From an uncultured Desulfohalobiaceae bacterium (GTDB taxonomy: Bacteria; Desulfobacterota; Desulfovibrionia; Desulfovibrionales; Desulfonatronovibrionaceae), in the NCBI GenBank assembly GCA_913055195.1, contig CAJXJU010000024.1:1-9400 (forward strand): a stretch of DNA of 9,400 bases, in the 5' to 3' direction. Shown piece by piece: positions 3,224-9,392 of this stretch. Made by a program: the position numbers and the translations under genes. Position 1 is the first letter of the stretch. Every line of letters starts with the position of its first letter. The notes under the pieces are model-generated. The model searched no databases. It had not been told where the DNA came from and saw only the letters and a program-made list of their open reading frames with translations.

Positions 3224-4672
3224 ATGCATGATAAATTTCCAGAGTATCGGGGACAGTTGCAATATTTTTGTTTGGGATGCGGAAAGAAATTTCCTGCGGA
3301 TGAACTTTATTATACCTGTCCTGAGTGTAAGGGGGTTTTTCTGCTTGAAGACACAAAATTTGACCAGTTAAAACAAATACCAGGACACAAATGGCAGGAG
3401 ATTTTTGATGAGCGGGCCAGGACAAAAAAGAACGCTTTAAGAGGGATTTTTCGTTATTACGAGCTTATTGCACCGGTAGTTGAAGAACAAGATATTGTAT
3501 ATCTGGGCGAAGGTAATACTCCTATTATTGAATCAAGCCCTGCTTTGACAAAAATCATAGGTCAGCCACTGGCTTATAAAAATGACGGGCAAAATCCCAG
3601 CGCATCTTTTAAAGATAGGGGCATGGCGTGTGCATTTAGTTATTTAAAGTCTTTGATACGCAAATATAACTGGGAGCATGTATTAACTATTTGTGCCTCT
3701 ACTGGCGATACATCGGCTGCTGCTGCTTTGTACGCTGCCTATGCAGGAGACAAGATTAAGTCTGTGGTTCTTTTGCCACAGGGCAAGGTAACAGCACAAC
3801 AACTGGCACAGCCTCTGGGCAGTGGCGCTCTGGTGTTAGAGATTCCAGGAGTATTTGATGATTGCATGAAGGTGGTGGAATATCTGGCTGATAATTTTCG
3901 GGTGGCTCTTTTAAATTCCAAAAATGCCTGGCGGATTTTAGGGCAGGAGAGTTATCCTTTTGAAATTGCCCAATGGTATGATTGGGATCTTAGGGGTAAG
4001 GTCATTTTTATGCCCATAGGCAATGCTGGCAATATTACTGCCTTGATGAGCGGTTTTTTAAAATTGAAAAAATTAAATATTATTTCTGAGTTGCCCAGGA
4101 TTGTTGGGGTCCAGTCCAGTCATGCTGATCCGGTTTTTAAATATTATGCTGAGGAAAAAGAAAAGCGTCAGTTTGTGCCGGTAAAAGTAAGCCCCAGTGT
4201 TGCCCAGGCAGCCATGATCGGCAATCCTGTGTCTTTCCCAAGAGTAAAGGCATTGGTCAGTGAGTATGAGCGAATTGGTGGGCCAGGTGTTTTTAATGTC
4301 GTACAGGTAGAAGAGCAGGAGATTATCGAAGGAATGCTCCTGGCCAACAGGCATGGTCATATTGCCTGTACCCAGGGCGGAGAGTGTCTGGCAGGGCTTA
4401 TCAGGGCTAAAGAAGCAGGTCTTATGGAAAAGGATGAACTGGCTATTCTGGATGCCACAGCACATAGCTTAAAGTTTATTGGCTTTCAGCAAATGTACTT
4501 TGAGGATTCATTCCCACCGGATTATGAAATCAAACCCAAAAAGGAATTTATCAATGCCCCCAGGCTGGTCTTGAGCGAGGACGAAAAAAAGGATTTGCCA
4601 GGCCAGGAGTTTACTCTGGAAGCTGGTAAAAGGATCGTGGAGATGCTGGGGCTTAGTAAAAAGGAGATATAA
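3224..4672 (+). CDS. thrC: Threonine synthase, with N-terminal zinc ribbon
   Basis: This PLP-dependent cytoplasmic enzyme converts O-phosphohomoserine to threonine in the last step of threonine synthesis. The 482-residue protein starts with a CxxC...CxxC zinc-ribbon-like segment (Cys16, 19, 32, 35). The catalytic domain follows: GEGNTP (about 95-100), the Schiff-base lysine Lys130 in SASFKDRGM, CASTGDTSAAA (157-167), and the glycine-rich GNAGN phosphate loop at about residues 264-268. The start ATG at 3224 has a GGGAG ribosome binding site at 3213-3217. It is the last gene of the packed + strand group. A 700-bp A+T-rich gap with a possible terminator follows directly, so it marks the right end of the housekeeping operon. 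Identification as a threonine synthase is secure. Confidence 0.96.
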   Translation: MHDKFPEYRGQLQYFCLGCGKKFPADELYYTCPECKGVFLLEDTKFDQLKQIPGHKWQEIFDERARTKKNALRGIFRYYELIAPVVEEQDIVYLGEGNTPIIESSPALTKIIGQPLAYKNDGQNPSASFKDRGMACAFSYLKSLIRKYNWEHVLTICASTGDTSAAAALYAAYAGDKIKSVVLLPQGKVTAQQLAQPLGSGALVLEIPGVFDDCMKVVEYLADNFRVALLNSKNAWRILGQESYPFEIAQWYDWDLRGKVIFMPIGNAGNITALMSGFLKLKKLNIISELPRIVGVQSSHADPVFKYYAEEKEKRQFVPVKVSPSVAQAAMIGNPVSFPRVKALVSEYERIGGPGVFNVVQVEEQEIIEGMLLANRHGHIACTQGGECLAGLIRAKEAGLMEKDELAILDATAHSLKFIGFQQMYFEDSFPPDYEIKPKKEFINAPRLVLSEDEKKDLPGQEFTLEAGKRIVEMLGLSKKEI

Positions 4673-4678
4673 AGTTCC

Positions 4679-4747
4679 AGGCACATCTGGCAAGTCAATT
4701 CAGGTTGCTAACGACTGTCCCGCTACTGGCAGATGCACCTTGTTTTT
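4679..4747 (+). terminator. Possible rho-independent terminator after thrC
   Basis: Seven bases after the thrC stop, AGGCACATCTGGCA (4679-4692) can pair imperfectly with TGGCAGATGCACCT (4727-4740). The core is CATCTG/CAGATG with an outer AGG/CCT and small internal loops, and the loop is long. T-rich TGTTTTT (4741-4747) follows at once. Position and T tract suit a terminator for the housekeeping operon, but the stem is interrupted and was found by eye without a folding calculation. Confidence 0.35.
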
Positions 4748-4903
4748 GAGGGTTGCAATGTATGAAGTGCCTGTTGATATTTATTCCATAAGTATTTTTA
4801 AGACCAACTTGTTATGAGCATTTTTTCACAATTTCCTTGACATCAGGAAAAAGTTTTTGCTAGTTTTATGACATATTTTTTAAGTAAAAGGACTCAATTT
4901 TCT

Positions 4904-4979
4904 GAACACCTAAAATGGACAGACAATATGGTTGATTATGAGAAAATTAACAGTCCGTAGGTGCTCGGTGCGGATTTCG
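4904..4979. repeat. Imperfect inverted repeat plus composite repeat module, left edge of accessory region
   Basis: GAACACCTA (4904-4912) and GGAC (4917-4920) can pair with TAGGTGCTC (4958-4966) and GTCC (4953-4956), with one mismatch. The right arm continues as TAGGTGCTCGGT (4958-4969) and then CGGATTTCG (4971-4979). Both of these modules recur, in the same order but on the opposite strand, at 9330-9319 and 9290-9282. This looks like a shortened copy of the intergenic repeat at the right end of the window. Function unknown. Confidence 0.5.
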
Positions 4980-4985
4980 TATTTT

Positions 4986-5011
4986 TCAACTTTCGGAACT
5001 CCGAAAGTTGA
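4986..5011. repeat. Perfect short palindrome (TTCGGA core), dispersed repeat
   Basis: CAACTTTCGGA (4987-4997) is followed after two bases by its exact reverse complement TCCGAAAGTTG (5000-5010). The flanking T/A (4986/5011) extends the pairing to 12 bp. One half recurs at 2272-2287. No T tract follows closely on either strand, so it is not a typical rho-independent terminator. It may be a REP-like element or a protein-binding site. Confidence 0.65.
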
Positions 5012-5296
5012 GTTACTCATTTTTGGCAGTTATTTATAGCTTTCTTTGTCCGTTGTTTTATTCAGAATAAGATTTGATAAAATTATTAATTTTTATCACG
5101 CTAACAATATAATATTTTTTATTTAAATTTTATCTAGAAAATTTAGAATAAACTGTCAATCCTCTGAAAAAATTTGAGAGAAATTATAGATTTTTTTGAA
5201 GTGAAATATTTTTTCTGTGGATCAGGAAGGCTGGTGCCTTGTTGTAACTGACTGAAATTGTTTGGTTTTTTAGTGTTCATGTTGATAACTATTTTC

Positions 5297-5326
5297 TTGA
5301 CCATAAGAATGAAAAAAAGTTATCCT
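5297..5326 (+). promoter_or_regulatory. Possible sigma-70-type promoter for the PIN-domain gene
   Basis: TTGACC (5297-5302) matches five of six -35 consensus bases. It is followed after 18 bp by TATCCT (5321-5326), which matches four of six -10 bases. Transcription would start near 5333, giving a leader of about 40-50 nt before the PIN gene. The surroundings are very A+T-rich, so a chance match is possible. Confidence 0.38.
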
Positions 5327-5373
5327 TCTCATAAAAAAGAGGTAACGGAAATAATATAAAATAAGTTAAAATA

Positions 5374-5835
5374 ATGAATAATATGAAAATTTATGCAGAC
5401 ACATCAATTTTTGGCGGAGTATTTGATAAGGAATTTTCAACTCCTAGTAAAAAATTTTTTCAACTGGTTGATTCAAAACGAATTACTCTTGTCACATCTG
5501 CTGTTGTAAAAGCCGAAATAGAGTATGCTCCTAATAATATCCAAATATTTTTTGAGAGATATGCAAGTATTTCTGAAATTGCTGATATAGACGAAAGAGT
5601 TTTAAAATTACGAGATGAATATATAAAAGCTGGTATTGTAACAAAAAATTCTATGGATGATGCACTTCATGTAGCAATAGCAACACTATCAAGATGTGAT
5701 ATAATTGTAAGTTGGAATTTCAAGCATATTGTACATTACGACAAAATACCCAAATATAATGCAGTGAATATTCTTTTTGGATATACGCAAATAGATATAT
5801 TTTCTCCGTTGGAGGTAATTGATTATGACGAATAA
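5374..5835 (+). CDS. PIN-domain nuclease, probable toxin of a cassette-borne toxin-antitoxin pair
   Basis: PIN domains are Mg-dependent ribonucleases, many of them VapC-type toxins. The 153-residue protein has the expected acidic residues: Asp9 in IYADTSIFGG, Glu48 in VVKAEIEYAP, Asp96 in MDDALHVAIA and Asp109 just before VSWNFKH. The start is either ATG 5374 or ATG 5383. The second gives MKIYADTS, the usual family beginning. Neither has a clear ribosome binding site. The stop overlaps the next small gene by 11 bp, so the two are probably translated together. The order is toxin first, the reverse of classical vapBC. It belongs to the first visible cassette, closed by attC at 5959-6015. The PIN fold is well supported; the toxin role is inferred from fold, partner and integron setting. 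Confidence 0.88.
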   Translation: MNNMKIYADTSIFGGVFDKEFSTPSKKFFQLVDSKRITLVTSAVVKAEIEYAPNNIQIFFERYASISEIADIDERVLKLRDEYIKAGIVTKNSMDDALHVAIATLSRCDIIVSWNFKHIVHYDKIPKYNAVNILFGYTQIDIFSPLEVIDYDE

Positions 5836-6001
5836 CGAACCAAAGTGTATATTATTAAAACGAAAAGGAGCGTCTCGTATAAGAAAGATTTTAAATGACA
5901 AAAATTTTGAAGAAGAATTATTATTTTGGCAAAACCAGACTGAAAAATTAAAAAAAGAATTTAACAAGCCATTTCAGCGGACGGCTAACCGCCGCCGCTG
6001 A
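5825..6001 (+). CDS. Small partner of the PIN nuclease, probable antitoxin
   Basis: A 58-residue protein starting at ATG 5825, with a good GGAGG ribosome binding site at 5811-5815 inside the end of the PIN gene (11-bp overlap). The middle is charged and probably helical, with KRKGASRIRKILND followed by FEEELLFWQNQTEKLKKE. That pattern resembles the small proteins often encoded next to this PIN group and is compatible with an antitoxin. I cannot assign a DNA-binding domain by eye. The last 13 residues, ending KPFQRTANRRR, are translated from the attC site itself, and the TGA stop (5999-6001) lies in the right arm of the attC stem. The tail is therefore a by-product of cassette architecture and need not be conserved. 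Confidence 0.72.
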   Translation: MTNNEPKCILLKRKGASRIRKILNDKNFEEELLFWQNQTEKLKKEFNKPFQRTANRRR

Positions 6002-6015
6002 ATTTAGTGTTATAC
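5959..6015 (+). other. Integron attC recombination site 1
   Basis: The left box ATTTAAC (5959-5965) fits RYYYAAC exactly. The right box GTTATAC (6009-6015) fits GTTRRRY with one deviation. Between them TTCAGCGG (5973-5980) pairs perfectly with CCGCTGAA (5995-6002) around a short G+C-rich loop. At 57 bp it is at the short end of known attC sizes. It overlaps the 3' end of the upstream coding region, as is common for cassettes. Confidence 0.85.
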
Positions 6016-6044
6016 GCAAATTAAAAAAATCAATGTGAACTAAA

Positions 6045-6527
6045 ATGTATTATTTGTATTTTGCAACAGGATTGGCATTATTAATTTCTATTATCGTAGA
6101 TAGAAAAAAGACACTTACAGCGATTAAAATATCCTATAAGAAATTTATCAATATTATACCTGCATTTTTAACAATGCTCATTCTTGTTTCAATCGTCCTT
6201 TTTTTTATACCTGATAAGATGATCTCAGATTATTTGGGGAATAACGACAAGTTTATTGGTGTCATATTAGCTTCCTTTTTTGGCTCCATAACATTAATGC
6301 CAGGGTTTATTGCCTTTCCGCTATGTGGCATTCTGCTAAAAAAAGGCGTGAGTTATATGGTATTATCAGCTTTTACTACAACTTTAATGATGGTAGGTAT
6401 TCTTACCTATCCGGTAGAGAAGGAATATTTTGGAGTTAAAGTGACCATAATAAGAAATGCAATTAGTTTTTTTATAGCAATTATTGTTGCGTTATCAATC
6501 GGGTTTTTCTTTGGTGAGTTATTATGA
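6045..6527 (+). CDS. Half-size permease, first subunit (ArsP/DUF318-like)
   Basis: A 160-residue hydrophobic protein with about five likely membrane segments (roughly residues 2-18, 36-56, 70-92, 102-122, 138-158). It resembles half of the predicted permease family that includes ArsP (PF03773), whose members are normally about 300 residues. Key segment: AFPLCGILLKKGVSY at residues 90-104, followed by a helix and a basic RN motif. The same pattern recurs in the next gene, so the two are homologous halves. No ribosome binding site precedes ATG 6045, which lies only 30 bp after the attC1 right box, so translation may depend on a leader-poor or weak start. The TGA stop overlaps the next ATG (ATGA). 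Probably a two-subunit transporter; the substrate, possibly a metal(loid) compound, cannot be deduced. Confidence 0.75.
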   Translation: MYYLYFATGLALLISIIVDRKKTLTAIKISYKKFINIIPAFLTMLILVSIVLFFIPDKMISDYLGNNDKFIGVILASFFGSITLMPGFIAFPLCGILLKKGVSYMVLSAFTTTLMMVGILTYPVEKEYFGVKVTIIRNAISFFIAIIVALSIGFFFGELL

Positions 6528-7051
6528 AAATGCAAAATAAGCACATCAAAGCATTGGCGATAGCAATTTATTTTGTATTTATTGTTAGTTCTTTTGTGAT
6601 TGGGTTTAAACCAGGAAAGCAAATAGGACATAATTTTCTTTCCTTTTCCATTGAGATGTTGAAGCTATTACCCTGTGCTTTCATTTTGATTGGTTTGTTT
6701 GAAGTGTGGGTAAAAAAGGAAAGTGTTGAGAAACATTTAGGAAAAGACTCTGGAGCGATAGGCTATGTCTGGGTTATACTTCTTGCAGGAACTACCGTTG
6801 GAGGATTATATGTAGCTTTTCCTGTTGCGTATTCTTTGTTTAAAAAAGGAGCGAGACTCTCTTTTATTTTTACATACATTGGTGCTTCTGCAATTTGCAG
6901 GGTTCCAATGACAATCTTTGAATCTTCGTTCATGGGAATAACGTTTAGCTTGATAAGACTTATTGTTTCCATACCGTTGGTTATTTTAAGTTCTGTATGG
7001 CTGGGGAATTATCTTGAAAAGAGAAATTACAGAATAATGGAAGGAAAATAA
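6524..7051 (+). CDS. Half-size permease, second subunit (ArsP/DUF318-like)
   Basis: A 175-residue membrane protein with about five segments. It starts at the ATG that overlaps the previous stop codon (ATGA), with GGTGAG at 6511-6516 as a plausible ribosome binding site; a second in-frame ATG is at 6530. Residues 98-110 read AFPVAYSLFKKGA, matching AFPLCGILLKKG of the first subunit. ASAICRVPMTIFE follows and the chain ends in a short basic tail. The four-base overlap implies coupled synthesis, and the two halves together have the size of one complete PF03773-type permease. Both lie in one cassette bounded by attC1 and attC2. Membrane permease is well supported; the ArsP relationship is moderately sure and the substrate is unknown. 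Confidence 0.75.
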   Translation: MKMQNKHIKALAIAIYFVFIVSSFVIGFKPGKQIGHNFLSFSIEMLKLLPCAFILIGLFEVWVKKESVEKHLGKDSGAIGYVWVILLAGTTVGGLYVAFPVAYSLFKKGARLSFIFTYIGASAICRVPMTIFESSFMGITFSLIRLIVSIPLVILSSVWLGNYLEKRNYRIMEGK

Positions 7052-7056
7052 AAAGC

Positions 7057-7128
7057 GTATAACAAATTACTACACTGGATTTTTACTTCGCTGCGCTCCG
7101 TAAAAACCAGTGAGTTCAATCGTTAAGA
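7057..7128 (+). other. Integron attC recombination site 2
   Basis: The left box GTATAAC (7057-7063) is followed by AA, giving the TAACAA found in all four sites. The right box is GTTAAGA (7122-7128). The arms CACTGGATTTTTAC and GTAAAAACCAGTG pair fully except for one extra A in the left arm, an extrahelical base of the kind typical for attC. The loop contains CGCTGCGCTC (7089-7098), shared with attC3. Total 72 bp. The site begins five bases after the permease stop. Confidence 0.85.
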
Positions 7129-7136
7129 TAGGAAAA

Positions 7137-7421
7137 ATGAAAAATAAGAAGACAATATCAACATTTCAGTCAATAGATAGAGAACATAGTGAACAGAAAA
7201 TATCACCATTTGGTCATTTGTTTAGATTCATTGGTTGGTGGTTTGGATTTACTGGTCTTTACGCTACATTTGTTGTTTGTCCTTTCTGTGGACAGCAAGG
7301 GTGTCCCGTAGGTATGGCATCAGCAGGCACTATCGGAGCTTTCTTTGCGTTGTGCGTTCAAGACTGGAAACGATTTTTCGTATTCATCAGGCAAAAAATA
7401 AAAAGAAAAGAAAAATCCTAA
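7137..7421 (+). CDS. Small Cys-rich membrane protein of unknown function
   Basis: A 94-residue protein in its own 363-bp cassette. I choose ATG 7137 over the in-frame GTG at 7110, because the latter lies inside attC2; an AGGA sits shortly upstream (7130-7133). After a polar N-terminus come two hydrophobic stretches (about residues 28-48 and 58-74) flanking CPFCGQQGCPVG (Cys48, Cys51, Cys56), then a basic tail ending KRKEKS. The CxxC plus third Cys inside or next to the membrane could bind metal or be redox-active, but I do not recognise the family with certainty. The stop TAA (7419-7421) is part of the attC3 left box. Proximity to the permease cassette may hint at a related role, but separate cassettes need not be functionally linked. 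Confidence 0.68.
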   Translation: MKNKKTISTFQSIDREHSEQKISPFGHLFRFIGWWFGFTGLYATFVVCPFCGQQGCPVGMASAGTIGAFFALCVQDWKRFFVFIRQKIKRKEKS

Positions 7422-7491
7422 CAAGTCAATGCACCTGACCTTTTCCCGCCGCTGCGCTCTGGGAAAAAACAGGTGATTTCCAACGTTAGAA
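7416..7491 (+). other. Integron attC recombination site 3
   Basis: The left box TCCTAAC (7416-7422) is followed by AA, and the right box is GTTAGAA (7485-7491). CACCTG (7432-7437) pairs with CAGGTG (7470-7475), and TTTTCCC (7441-7447) pairs with GGGAAAA (7461-7467). The spacers between these stems differ by one base (three versus two). The loop shares CGCTGCGCTC (7450-7459) with attC2. Total 76 bp. Confidence 0.88.
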
Positions 7492-7534
7492 ATAAAAAAA
7501 TAAACAATAGAAAATAATAAAGGTGGGAGGAAAA

Positions 7535-7858
7535 ATGCAAAATAAAGTAATGATAGGATATTGCGGATTAGTTTGTTCTAATTGTTGGGCCTATCGGAAA
7601 AGTAAATGCGATGGTTGTTATAGTGAAAAACCAATGTATAAAAATTGTCCTGTAAAATAATGTTGTATAGAAAAACAATATACAACATGTGCAGAATGCA
7701 CTCAATATGTTGATTTAAGAAAATGTAAAAAACTTAACAATTATGTTGCTAAAATAATAGGGTTTATATTTAGAACAAATAAGATTAAAAATTTGGAAAG
7801 GATTAGGGAAATAGGATTAGAAAATTTTAGAGAAAGGATAAAACAGAATATTATCTAA
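7535..7858 (+). pseudogene. DUF3795-like Cys-rich protein gene, interrupted by an in-frame TAA
   Basis: A strong ribosome binding site (AGGTGGGAGG, 7521-7530) precedes ATG 7535. The frame reads MQNKVMIGYCGLVCSNCWAY, then SKCDGCYSE and YKNCPVK, and meets TAA at 7658-7660 after 41 codons. The same frame continues without a break for 65 more codons: CCIEKQYTTCAECTQY, DLRKCKKLNN, then a helix ending KQNII before TAA at 7856-7858. YCGLxCxxC at the start and CCIEK...TCAEC...CKKLNN after the stop are successive parts of the DUF3795 pattern, so the TAA splits one domain. One base change (for example AAA to TAA) would explain it. No good restart codon follows. Read-through is the alternative, but nothing nearby suggests recoding. 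The gene fills the cassette between attC3 and attC4. Confidence 0.8.
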
Positions 7859-7918
7859 CAATCCTTTTCAGATACTGTGAAACAACTGACAAAAAATAAA
7901 TACAAAAAATAGAAAATT

Positions 7919-7979
7919 TCCTAACAAAGCTTTCCACCCGACCCGCCATACGGCGGGCAGGTGAACTTAGGCGTTATAA
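7919..7979 (+). other. Integron attC recombination site 4
   Basis: The left box TCCTAAC (7919-7925) is followed by AA, and the right box is GTTATAA (7973-7979). CCCGCC (7942-7947) pairs with GGCGGG (7952-7957) around a four-base ATAC loop. CACC (7936-7939) pairs with GGTG (7960-7963), with unequal spacers (CGA versus CA) giving an extra base. Total 61 bp. The right part GTGAACTTAGGCGTTA aligns well with the matching parts of sites 1-3. Confidence 0.88.
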
Positions 7980-8033
7980 TAAAATTAAAATAAAGTATAT
8001 GGAGAAATGACGATGAATGTATGACCTACATTG

Positions 8034-8270: not shown

Positions 8271-8444
8271 ATGTACAAAACGAGTAATATCGAAGCCCTG
8301 TGTAGGGAAAACCGTGCGTAGGATGCTGTGAGGGAAATTAGGGACATGCAAATAATGTTTGATAAGTGTTTAGGTGGTTGAGAATGAGGAAAAAATTGTT
8401 TAAGAGTGCGAAAAAGAGGTTGAAAATTTGTAAAAAGTGGAGAT
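8271..8444 (+). pseudogene. Possible decayed coding remnant
   Basis: ATG 8271 opens a frame reading MYKTSNIEALCRENRA, then TAG at 8319-8321, then DAVREIRDMQIMFDKCLGG and a stop. After a +1 shift the text VVENEEKIV, stop, ECEKEVENL, stop, KVEI follows, up to the edge of the large palindrome. These charged, helix-like strings broken by stops and a shift look like an eroded gene, but A+T-rich purine-rich DNA produces such strings by chance. No family is recognised, and nothing else is seen in the 8220-8444 gap. Confidence 0.2.
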
Positions 8445-8598
8445 AAGAGTCACCTGCAAAAAGTAAATTTTTCCGTGCGGGGACAGGTGAACAGCGATAG
8501 CGAGCGTTGTGGCGGTTGTAACCATTTGAAATTATTAGTTGTTCGCCTGTCCCCGCTAGCCGTAATTTACGAGTTTCGACTTTTTGCAGGCGACTCTT
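8445..8598. repeat. 154-bp imperfect palindrome at the 3' end of the RelE-type toxin gene
   Basis: The outer arms at 8445-8464 and 8579-8598 are 20 bp each with one mismatch. The inner arms GCGGGGACAGGTGAACA (8477-8493) and 8540-8556 are 17 bp with one mismatch. GTAAATT also pairs between the two sets, and the right arm has about ten extra bases there. The loop (8494-8539) has a small GGTTGTAACC hairpin. The GGGGACAGG core resembles REP or MITE-like mobile repeats, but no transposase is present. The toxin frame ends inside the right arm (8567). Confidence 0.75.
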
Positions 8599-8926
8599 TT
8601 ATTAATTTTTCTAATAAGATATCCTCAATATTTCTTCTGGAATCGATTATTGTCAATATGTATACTGTCTTATCTGTTACTCTGTCCATCACCCTCCAGG
8701 GTGGAATAATTAATTCTCGATAGATTAATATTCCTTGTTTCTCTAATTCCGGGATATAACGACCACGATAGGGAGAAAAAGTAAGTGCCTCTACTTTTTC
8801 TTTAATTTGAGCAAAAAGCTTTCTTGCTGTAAGAGGACTGTCCTGAGCGATATAGTCAATAATTTCTTCTAGATCGTCAGCAGCAGATCTAGTCCATATT
8901 ACTTGAAATTTCTGTCCCTCATTCAT
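8567..8926 (-). CDS. RelE/ParE-family toxin
   Basis: A 119-residue toxin of the RelE/ParE superfamily. Members either cleave ribosome-bound mRNA or poison gyrase, and the sequence alone does not decide which. It shows the family layout: beta strand FQVIWTRSAADDLEEIIDYI (about residues 7-26), two helices, SPYRGRYIPEL, then IYREL, PWRVMDRV and the ILTIIDSRRN strand-turn near the C-terminus. Its ATG overlaps the antitoxin stop by four bases (ATGA), the usual coupled arrangement, so both come from the antitoxin promoter. The last ten residues, KESPAKSRNS, are encoded by the right arm of a large palindrome. They extend past the usual end after the DSRR region, as if a repeat had inserted and replaced the native stop. 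The core fold is complete, so the toxin may still be functional. Confidence 0.9.
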   Translation of the reverse strand: MNEGQKFQVIWTRSAADDLEEIIDYIAQDSPLTARKLFAQIKEKVEALTFSPYRGRYIPELEKQGILIYRELIIPPWRVMDRVTDKTVYILTIIDSRRNIEDILLEKLIKESPAKSRNS

Positions 8927-9192
8927 TTCAACTTTGCTTGCACCTTCTCCATAACTAAATTATTGGGCACTAGAACTTTATTTTTTATTTCATCCTCGGC
9001 CAGGGACAAAAGCTTTAAAATTCCAATGGTGTTCCTCATTTTTTCAAAGCTTTCTGGGTCTTGCAGAACGGCCCGTGGCTCTCCATTTTGTGTTATTATT
9101 ACAGGACGATGCGTCTCATTAATTTGTTTTAACAAATCTGCCGCCCTGGATTTCAAATAACTAATCGATTTAATATCTGTGGATATATTCAT
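8923..9192 (-). CDS. Phd/YefM-family antitoxin
   Basis: An 89-residue antitoxin that neutralises the downstream RelE/ParE toxin and represses the operon. The N-terminal part has the Phd/YefM pattern: ISYLKSRAADLLKQINETHR, then PVIITQNGEPRAVL and DPESFEKM (about residues 10-53), which is the DNA-binding and dimer domain. The rest is a charged C-terminal segment, the likely toxin-binding part. ATG at 9192 is preceded by a strong GGAGGTGA ribosome binding site (9204-9197 on the minus strand). It is first in the operon and overlaps the toxin start by four bases. It is oriented against the cassette genes and has its own promoter, as is common for toxin-antitoxin modules in or near integron arrays. 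Confidence 0.92.
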   Translation of the reverse strand: MNISTDIKSISYLKSRAADLLKQINETHRPVIITQNGEPRAVLQDPESFEKMRNTIGILKLLSLAEDEIKNKVLVPNNLVMEKVQAKLK

Positions 9193-9310: not shown

Positions 9311-9392
9311 CAGCACCAACCGAGCACCTAACAAAGGTCTTGTTCACACGAAGATTTGAAATTTGCCATGCTTAGGTGCTCGGTTGGTGCTG
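9311..9392. repeat. 21-bp perfect inverted repeat with 40-nt loop
   Basis: The arm at 9311-9331 (CAGCACCAACCG, then AGCACCTAA) is the exact reverse complement of 9372-9392. The loop is 9332-9371. The core TAGGTGCTCGGT also occurs at 4958-4969. The last few bases of the window continue G+C-rich (GGGCACGGC), and no coding frame is supported here. It could be a strong transcript hairpin, the end of a mobile element or a member of an intergenic repeat family. Confidence 0.7.

Follow-up and report, generated by a model that had tools for sequence, protein, structure and literature searches.

We analysed a stretch of DNA, hereafter the window, from an uncultured Desulfohalobiaceae bacterium that is probably akin to sulfate reducers. 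The window comprises an entire contig of the draft genome (CAJXJU010000024.1, here C24; 9,400 bp) and carries an integron cassette array with four predicted attC sites. The draft assembly holds 1,896,132 bases in 397 contigs and is 82% complete. A run of genes that we take to be housekeeping genes by name, thrC (threonine synthase) among them, fills the first half of the window. Its last member is the thrC-like gene (3224–4672, + strand), whose product is 87% identical to a protein of the sister genome G001 and whose best named relatives were nearly all labelled Desulfovibrionales or delta-/other proteobacteria (80 loci kept). An earlier note on this DNA, made from the letters alone, had placed the array at 5959–7979, directly behind the housekeeping operon. 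The array does come after the housekeeping run and all four sites do lie within that interval, but the first cassette gene (5374–5835) precedes it, beginning about 700 bp past thrC, and the array continues past the window.

Results

The four sites occupy 5959–6015 (attC1, 57 bp), 7057–7128 (attC2, 72 bp), 7416–7491 (attC3, 76 bp) and 7919–7979 (attC4, 61 bp), as the earlier note had read them, and successive sites are spaced 1042, 288 and 428 bp apart. The common orientation and the shared ends that it described were likewise found: all four sites lie on the + strand, carry NNNTAACAA on the left and a GTTA box on the right, and have a TGA that starts 10 or 11 bases ahead of GTTA. The outer boxes R'' and R' read ATTTAAC (5959–5965) and GTTATAC (6009–6015) in attC1, GTATAAC and GTTAAGA in attC2, TCCTAAC and GTTAGAA in attC3, and TCCTAAC and GTTATAA in attC4. 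The core triplets AAC (R'') and GTT (R') are thereby present at every site, as NNNTAAC and GTTA; the longer textbook consensus is followed by R'' (RYYYAAC) at one of the four sites and by R' (GTTRRRY) at none of them. All four sites have, 16 bases past the AAC of R'', an A that stays unpaired in their folds, and the classical aadA1 attC has an unpaired A at the same place. Extra unpaired bases had been claimed for three of the stems; the folds have unpaired bases in all four. When bottom-strand DNA folds were compared with 200 shuffles each, 0, 4, 5 and 0 shuffles were as stable for attC1 to attC4, respectively (z scores of −5.20, −2.59, −2.35 and −3.37). By energy alone, attC1 and attC4 are strongly unusual, and attC2 and attC3 only moderately so.

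A scan of the window against Rfam returned nothing over gathering scores, and we therefore built our own covariance models. A MAFFT alignment of sites from relatives alone misaligned the stems, so an alignment of 16 sites was taken for a first model (R1), which includes the four window sites and is circular for the window, and a relatives-only alignment guided by R1 was then used for a second (R2; 57 rows, other genomes only). The source sites are attC-like and lie beside integron integrases or integrase remnants of relatives. Some rows of R2 are one site repeated across overlapping loci, similar rows being down-weighted rather than removed, and because the fitting used R1, the window had some influence on the structure of the model, though none on its sequences. 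All four sites were matched by R1 and by R2, the kind of check that the earlier note had suggested, made here with our own models in place of IntegronFinder's; R2 gave 41.9, 45.8, 48.3 and 45.2 bits for attC1 to attC4. Across the 1.9-Mb genome, R1 made 12 matches on four contigs (150 of 183 candidates were scored), 11 of them in one-strand groups of three or four. R2 found 8 further sites at 23.5–57.8 bits on three other contigs, C29, C273 and C290, the latter two holding three matches and one match. The TAACAA that precedes attC4 at 7856 was considered as a remnant site; no model match begins there.

In 80 control thrC loci (1,083,090 bases, both strands), R2 made no match at E ≤ 10. Among 101 genomes of the order, scanned with stricter filters under which weak sites are lost, it found attC matches in 46 (E ≤ 0.01). 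By a count from the result tables, all 46 are among the 60 genomes of the families other than f5, whose own 41 genomes have none, which argues that R2 does not fire at random. Presence of attC in the order thus described has a sharp family-level divide. The earlier note had proposed that its reading would fall if the same sequences occurred in ordinary, terminator-like places; no such occurrence was seen, the control loci and the f5 genomes being empty and the matches of the genome itself being clustered.

The boundaries of the cassettes offer a further line of evidence. When a cassette is circular, its R' box joins the last G to the first cassette bases, and the box to the left of an inserted cassette should therefore match the R'' of that cassette, which the box to its right need not do. 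We compared boxes with each cassette's own R'' at the four variable positions, using 20,000 permutations. For 34 cassettes from eight arrays in five genomes, left boxes matched at 3.38 of 4 positions and right boxes at 2.15, with 0 versus 954 permutations reaching these values. Extending the test to 40 cassettes from 11 arrays, by the addition of G001 C14, G001 C8 and G033 C4, gave 3.20 and 2.00 (0 versus 2271 permutations); arrays with fewer or scattered matches in other genomes lay outside the test. The eight cassettes of the window's own genome gave 3.0 and 2.0 (9 versus 725 permutations), six of the eight reaching 3 or 4 of 4 in the left box, and one on C273 with the unusual box GTTCGGT matched it perfectly. 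Such a match is, as judged from the box sequences, the mark of units that would have moved as circles cut at G/TT, and speaks for past movement, not present activity.

Within the window, where all cassettes lie on the + strand, cassette 2 (6010–7122) has the left box GTTATAC, the reverse complement of its own R'' GTATAAC at 7 of 7 positions. Cassette 3 (7123–7485) agrees with its left box at 3 of 4 variable positions and with its right box also at 3, and cassette 4 (7486–7973) at 3 and 2, respectively. A tentative left edge for cassette 1 is GTTAAAA at 5365–5371, which matches the reverse complement of its own R'' at 6 of 7 positions and would place the start of the cassette at 5366.

The array probably extends onto a second contig. 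The lpxI gene of the genome lies on C29, and the 2.4 kb before it hold four attC matches in the same orientation, the weakest at 23.5 bits. In G001, the sister species, thrC converges on an lpxI-like gene across a 37-bp gap, and the 19.9-kb thrC–lpxI stretch there has no attC match at E ≤ 1. A copy of a dispersed, palindrome-rich repeat lies at 8433–8610 of the window (55 match rows across the genome, some of which fall at the ends of contigs), and C29 begins within another copy of it (C29:3–76, 92% identical). From the position of lpxI, the shared repeat and the gene order in G001, C24 and C29 are likely to form opposite sides of a single locus that has at least 8 attC sites. attC4 is a close copy of the first attC on C29 (7891–7976 is 84% identical to C29:138–222). 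The 8433–8610 repeat is a likely reason for the assembly break in the array, and a second repeat, 92% identical, is also present on both contigs (window 8333–8397; C29 (L154) 1127–1190). The neighbours downstream of thrC differ in G003, G004 and G007, three genomes from other genera of the family.

G001 has attC-like clusters elsewhere, on two contigs with four and two sites (L187 8080–12005 and L188 7608–8725; 22.9–36.7 bits). These are candidates only, since they failed the left-box test, and as sequences they may be decayed arrays, arrays with missed sites in between, or false matches. The array region of G001 (15 kb) shares one 30-base match with the genome of the window.

We next consider the integrase. 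The earlier note had seen none in the window and had called for a search for intI; the draft genome has nothing over the TIGR02249 or NF011946 cut-offs, and C24 and C29 have no integrase match. The best TIGR02249 score in the genome (82.2 bits, against a cut-off of 265) belongs to a gene on C101 that is XerC/D-like by appearance. PF00589 identified three tyrosine recombinases, of which those on C299 and C140 are phage-integrase-like by appearance. In the order, 9 of the 101 genomes carry an integrase that exceeds the cut-off, each of them with an attC match somewhere in its genome; in the family these are two of 18 (G003 and G004). G001, which is 98% complete, has none over the cut-off, and no intI exceeds it in either of the two genomes searched from the genus. 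In the three relatives that we laid out (G003, G004 and G018), intI stands beyond the array head. A blastn comparison of the window with ten array loci of relatives, including L034, L035, L036, L038 and L044 with integrases or remnants, gave no match in 4673–5373, attI being poorly conserved.

The cassettes of the window encode a varied set of small genes. Cassette 1 carries a PIN-domain protein of 153 amino acids (5374–5835, +; Pfam PIN_3, 33 bits against a cut-off of 27) and a 58-amino-acid open reading frame (ORF; 5825–6001, +, or from 5819 in the ORF list) that overlaps the end of the PIN gene and stops inside attC1. This ORF has no family over cut-off; its position makes it a possible partner of the PIN protein. 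Cassette 2 encodes the two halves of an ArsP_1-type permease, of 160 amino acids (6045–6527, +; Pfam ArsP_1, 44.8 bits) and 175 amino acids (6524–7051, +; 41.6 bits), in genes that overlap by 4 bases. Cassette 3 has an ORF for a 94-amino-acid protein with a CPFCGQQGCPVG stretch (7137–7421, +) and no Pfam or NCBIfam family over cut-off. Cassette 4 opens with a 41-amino-acid ORF (7535–7660, +) that resembles the start of DUF3795 weakly (16.3 bits, below the cut-off of 22.6) and ends at a TAA; the open frame continues behind it to 7858, with no family found in that part, and the whole of 7535–7858 is likely to be a broken gene.

The first permease half has 2864 homologues and the 94-amino-acid protein 124, and among the 120 listed for each, relatives are named from several phyla, a spread that would fit wide transfer. 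One homologue of the 94-amino-acid protein, in another family of the phylum, is followed by an attC match there too. Plasmid and phage records had no match for window 5300–8020, and viral contigs had no relative of the permease half.

The other attC-bearing contigs hold comparable genes. C29 has a further PIN gene and a DUF4258/DUF2283 pair. The cassette of this pair (1303–1837) shares 77% identity over 545 bp with one in G004, and the shared stretch starts and stops inside attC sites in both genomes. C273 encodes a zeta-toxin-like protein and the candidate defence gene PDC-S18 (PADLOC, 417 bits). The PDC-S18 gene (L185 2429–3238, −) is followed by an attC match and is a possible defence cassette. 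At the end of C273, shortly past an attC match, lies an ORF (L185 3–206, −) that is presumably a transposase-like gene of the kind associated with repetitive extragenic palindromic (REP) sequences. On C290 (L186), a type II methyltransferase and a restriction enzyme (380–2617, −) lie downstream of the attC match.

Past attC4, the window holds a ParE-type toxin and Phd/YefM-type antitoxin pair (8567–9192, −; Pfam, 57.8 and 59.0 bits) that opposes the orientation of the array and has no attC of its own in view. The contig ends in a perfect 21-bp inverted repeat (9311–9331 and 9372–9392), which a stretch TAGGTGCTCGGTGCGG near 4959, between thrC and the array, resembles. A simple fold-based scanner flagged 9314–9389 on both strands; this is the contig-end inverted repeat, and neither R1 nor R2 matched it at E ≤ 1.

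Discussion

We conclude with high confidence that the window carries a row of integron cassettes, likely to have entered in succession as circles through the action of an integrase not found in the draft. The anatomy of the attC sites, the independent model R2 and the left-box test all support the cassette array proposed in the earlier note. The array is either a cluster of attC sites lacking integron integrases (CALIN) by the working definition or a complete integron with an unassembled integrase, and the enzyme that inserted the cassettes has likely been lost since, been left out of the assembly or been supplied from elsewhere. Mechanistically, the bottom strand of each attC would fold into a hairpin, and IntI would bind its boxes, cut G/TT in R' and join the circle to its target; cassettes could leave by the same route, given a supplied integrase. 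With no intI, the array would now either lie idle or depend on an integrase acting in trans. Signs in keeping with an ageing array are the nonsense codon in cassette 4 and the spoiled boxes seen on C29.

Several observations weigh against this account. Two of the eight cassettes of the genome, both on C29, fall below 3 of 4 in the left box and lie beside spoiled R' boxes at two sites, cassette 3 of the window fits its left and right boxes equally, and the four G001 cassettes fail the test (1, 1, 2 and 1 of 4). The edge proposed on the left of cassette 1 is weak, as agreement at 6 of 7 positions or more is reached by 13 of the window's 188 GTT sites. Among homologue loci from a draw of 395 genomes within the phylum (with up to 1.5 kb of flank, less where a contig ended), an attC match accompanied the 94-amino-acid protein in 1 of 19 and the permease half in 0 of 7, so that the genes of cassettes 2 and 3 were mostly not seen as cassettes in those genomes. 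The join of C24 and C29 rests on the gene order of one sister species. Finally, the draft is 82% complete and both contigs end in the array region, where intI could sit in the gap; an integrase may therefore still exist.

It is possible, if doubtful, that no attI ever stood here and that an integrase working from elsewhere put the first cassette into an ordinary G/TT (attG-like) between thrC and lpxI, later ones following at its attC. The bare 37-bp gap in the sister species and the lack of intI over the cut-off in either genome of the genus that was searched favour this course, as does a G/TT fitting the first cassette 9 bp ahead of its first gene, and insertion at attG is reported in a paper cited by title in PMC11023631. 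However, that G/TT matches no better than the 13 of 188 GTT sites mentioned above, and the 692 bp between thrC and it are also without a match in the G001 locus, so that more than cassettes came in or diverged. An attI may also have stood at the locus.

It is unlikely that the array belongs to a complete integron whose own intI and attI lie in the unassembled stretch between C24 and C29 or in another missing part of the genome. The incompleteness of the assembly, a repeat with tens of copies that is present in both contigs, and the two intI-bearing genomes among the 18 of the family (G003 and G004) would all accommodate it. Yet G001, far more complete at 98%, also has nothing over the cut-off, and intI in relatives stands beyond the array head, which here faces thrC about 700 bp away on a contig with no integrase match.

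We consider it rather improbable that a Desulfovibrionales lineage keeps arrays without an integrase of its own, the thrC–lpxI array having been planted outside attI by the integrase of neighbours. The failure of the G001 cassettes in the left-box test lowered our estimate of this scenario, under which cassettes would spread as guests of the integrons of other species in the same habitat. A reading of the hairpins as plain terminators or REP-like repeats that resemble attC by chance is exceedingly unlikely: the hairpins are stable, intergenic and at or just after stop codons in a genome with many palindromic repeats, but both end boxes are conserved, the unpaired base is fixed, the 80 control loci and 41 f5 genomes gave no match, and the left-box agreement arose in 0 of 20,000 permutations overall and 9 of 20,000 for the genome itself.

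The cassette array is thus real and ordinary in kind, and such sites are common in the order. A search of the open-licence literature on integrons in this order gave no paper titled on such an array, and one survey reports complete integrons to be absent from the Desulfovibrionaceae that it covered (PMC11434368). The array provides a clear integrase-less example in the order to which that surveyed family belongs. The bare locus of the sister species raises the question of how such arrays arise, by loss of the platform or by planting outside attI. The PIN-domain, permease and candidate defence cassettes agree with the established view of cassettes as a pool of genes held in common.

Among known systems, the array is most simply compared with CALINs, whose working definition is two or more attC sites separated by less than 4 kb with no integrase near (PMC9668308 and PMC9024848). 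It has at least two such sites in the same orientation at less than that distance, small genes between them and no integrase nearby, and differs in no defining feature, the absence of intI being provisional in a draft whose C24–C29 gap is unseen. CALINs are numerous, with 2961 beside 2760 complete integrons in RefSeq genomes (PMC9024848), and their cassettes are still open to excision or capture by outside integrases (PMC9668308). Like a sedentary chromosomal integron, the array has housekeeping genes on both sides and repeats inside it, and the genome has cassettes for PIN- and zeta-toxin-like proteins; in contrast to one, no intI was found. Vibrio-type sedentary integrons have attC sites more alike than those here. 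With likely 8 sites at the locus and 12 in the assembly, the count falls around the 10-site mark proposed for sedentary chromosomal integrons (PMC9024848). The integrons of G003, G004 and G018 differ in that intI exceeds the cut-off in those genomes; they share the same attC build, and a homologous cassette is common to C29 and G004.

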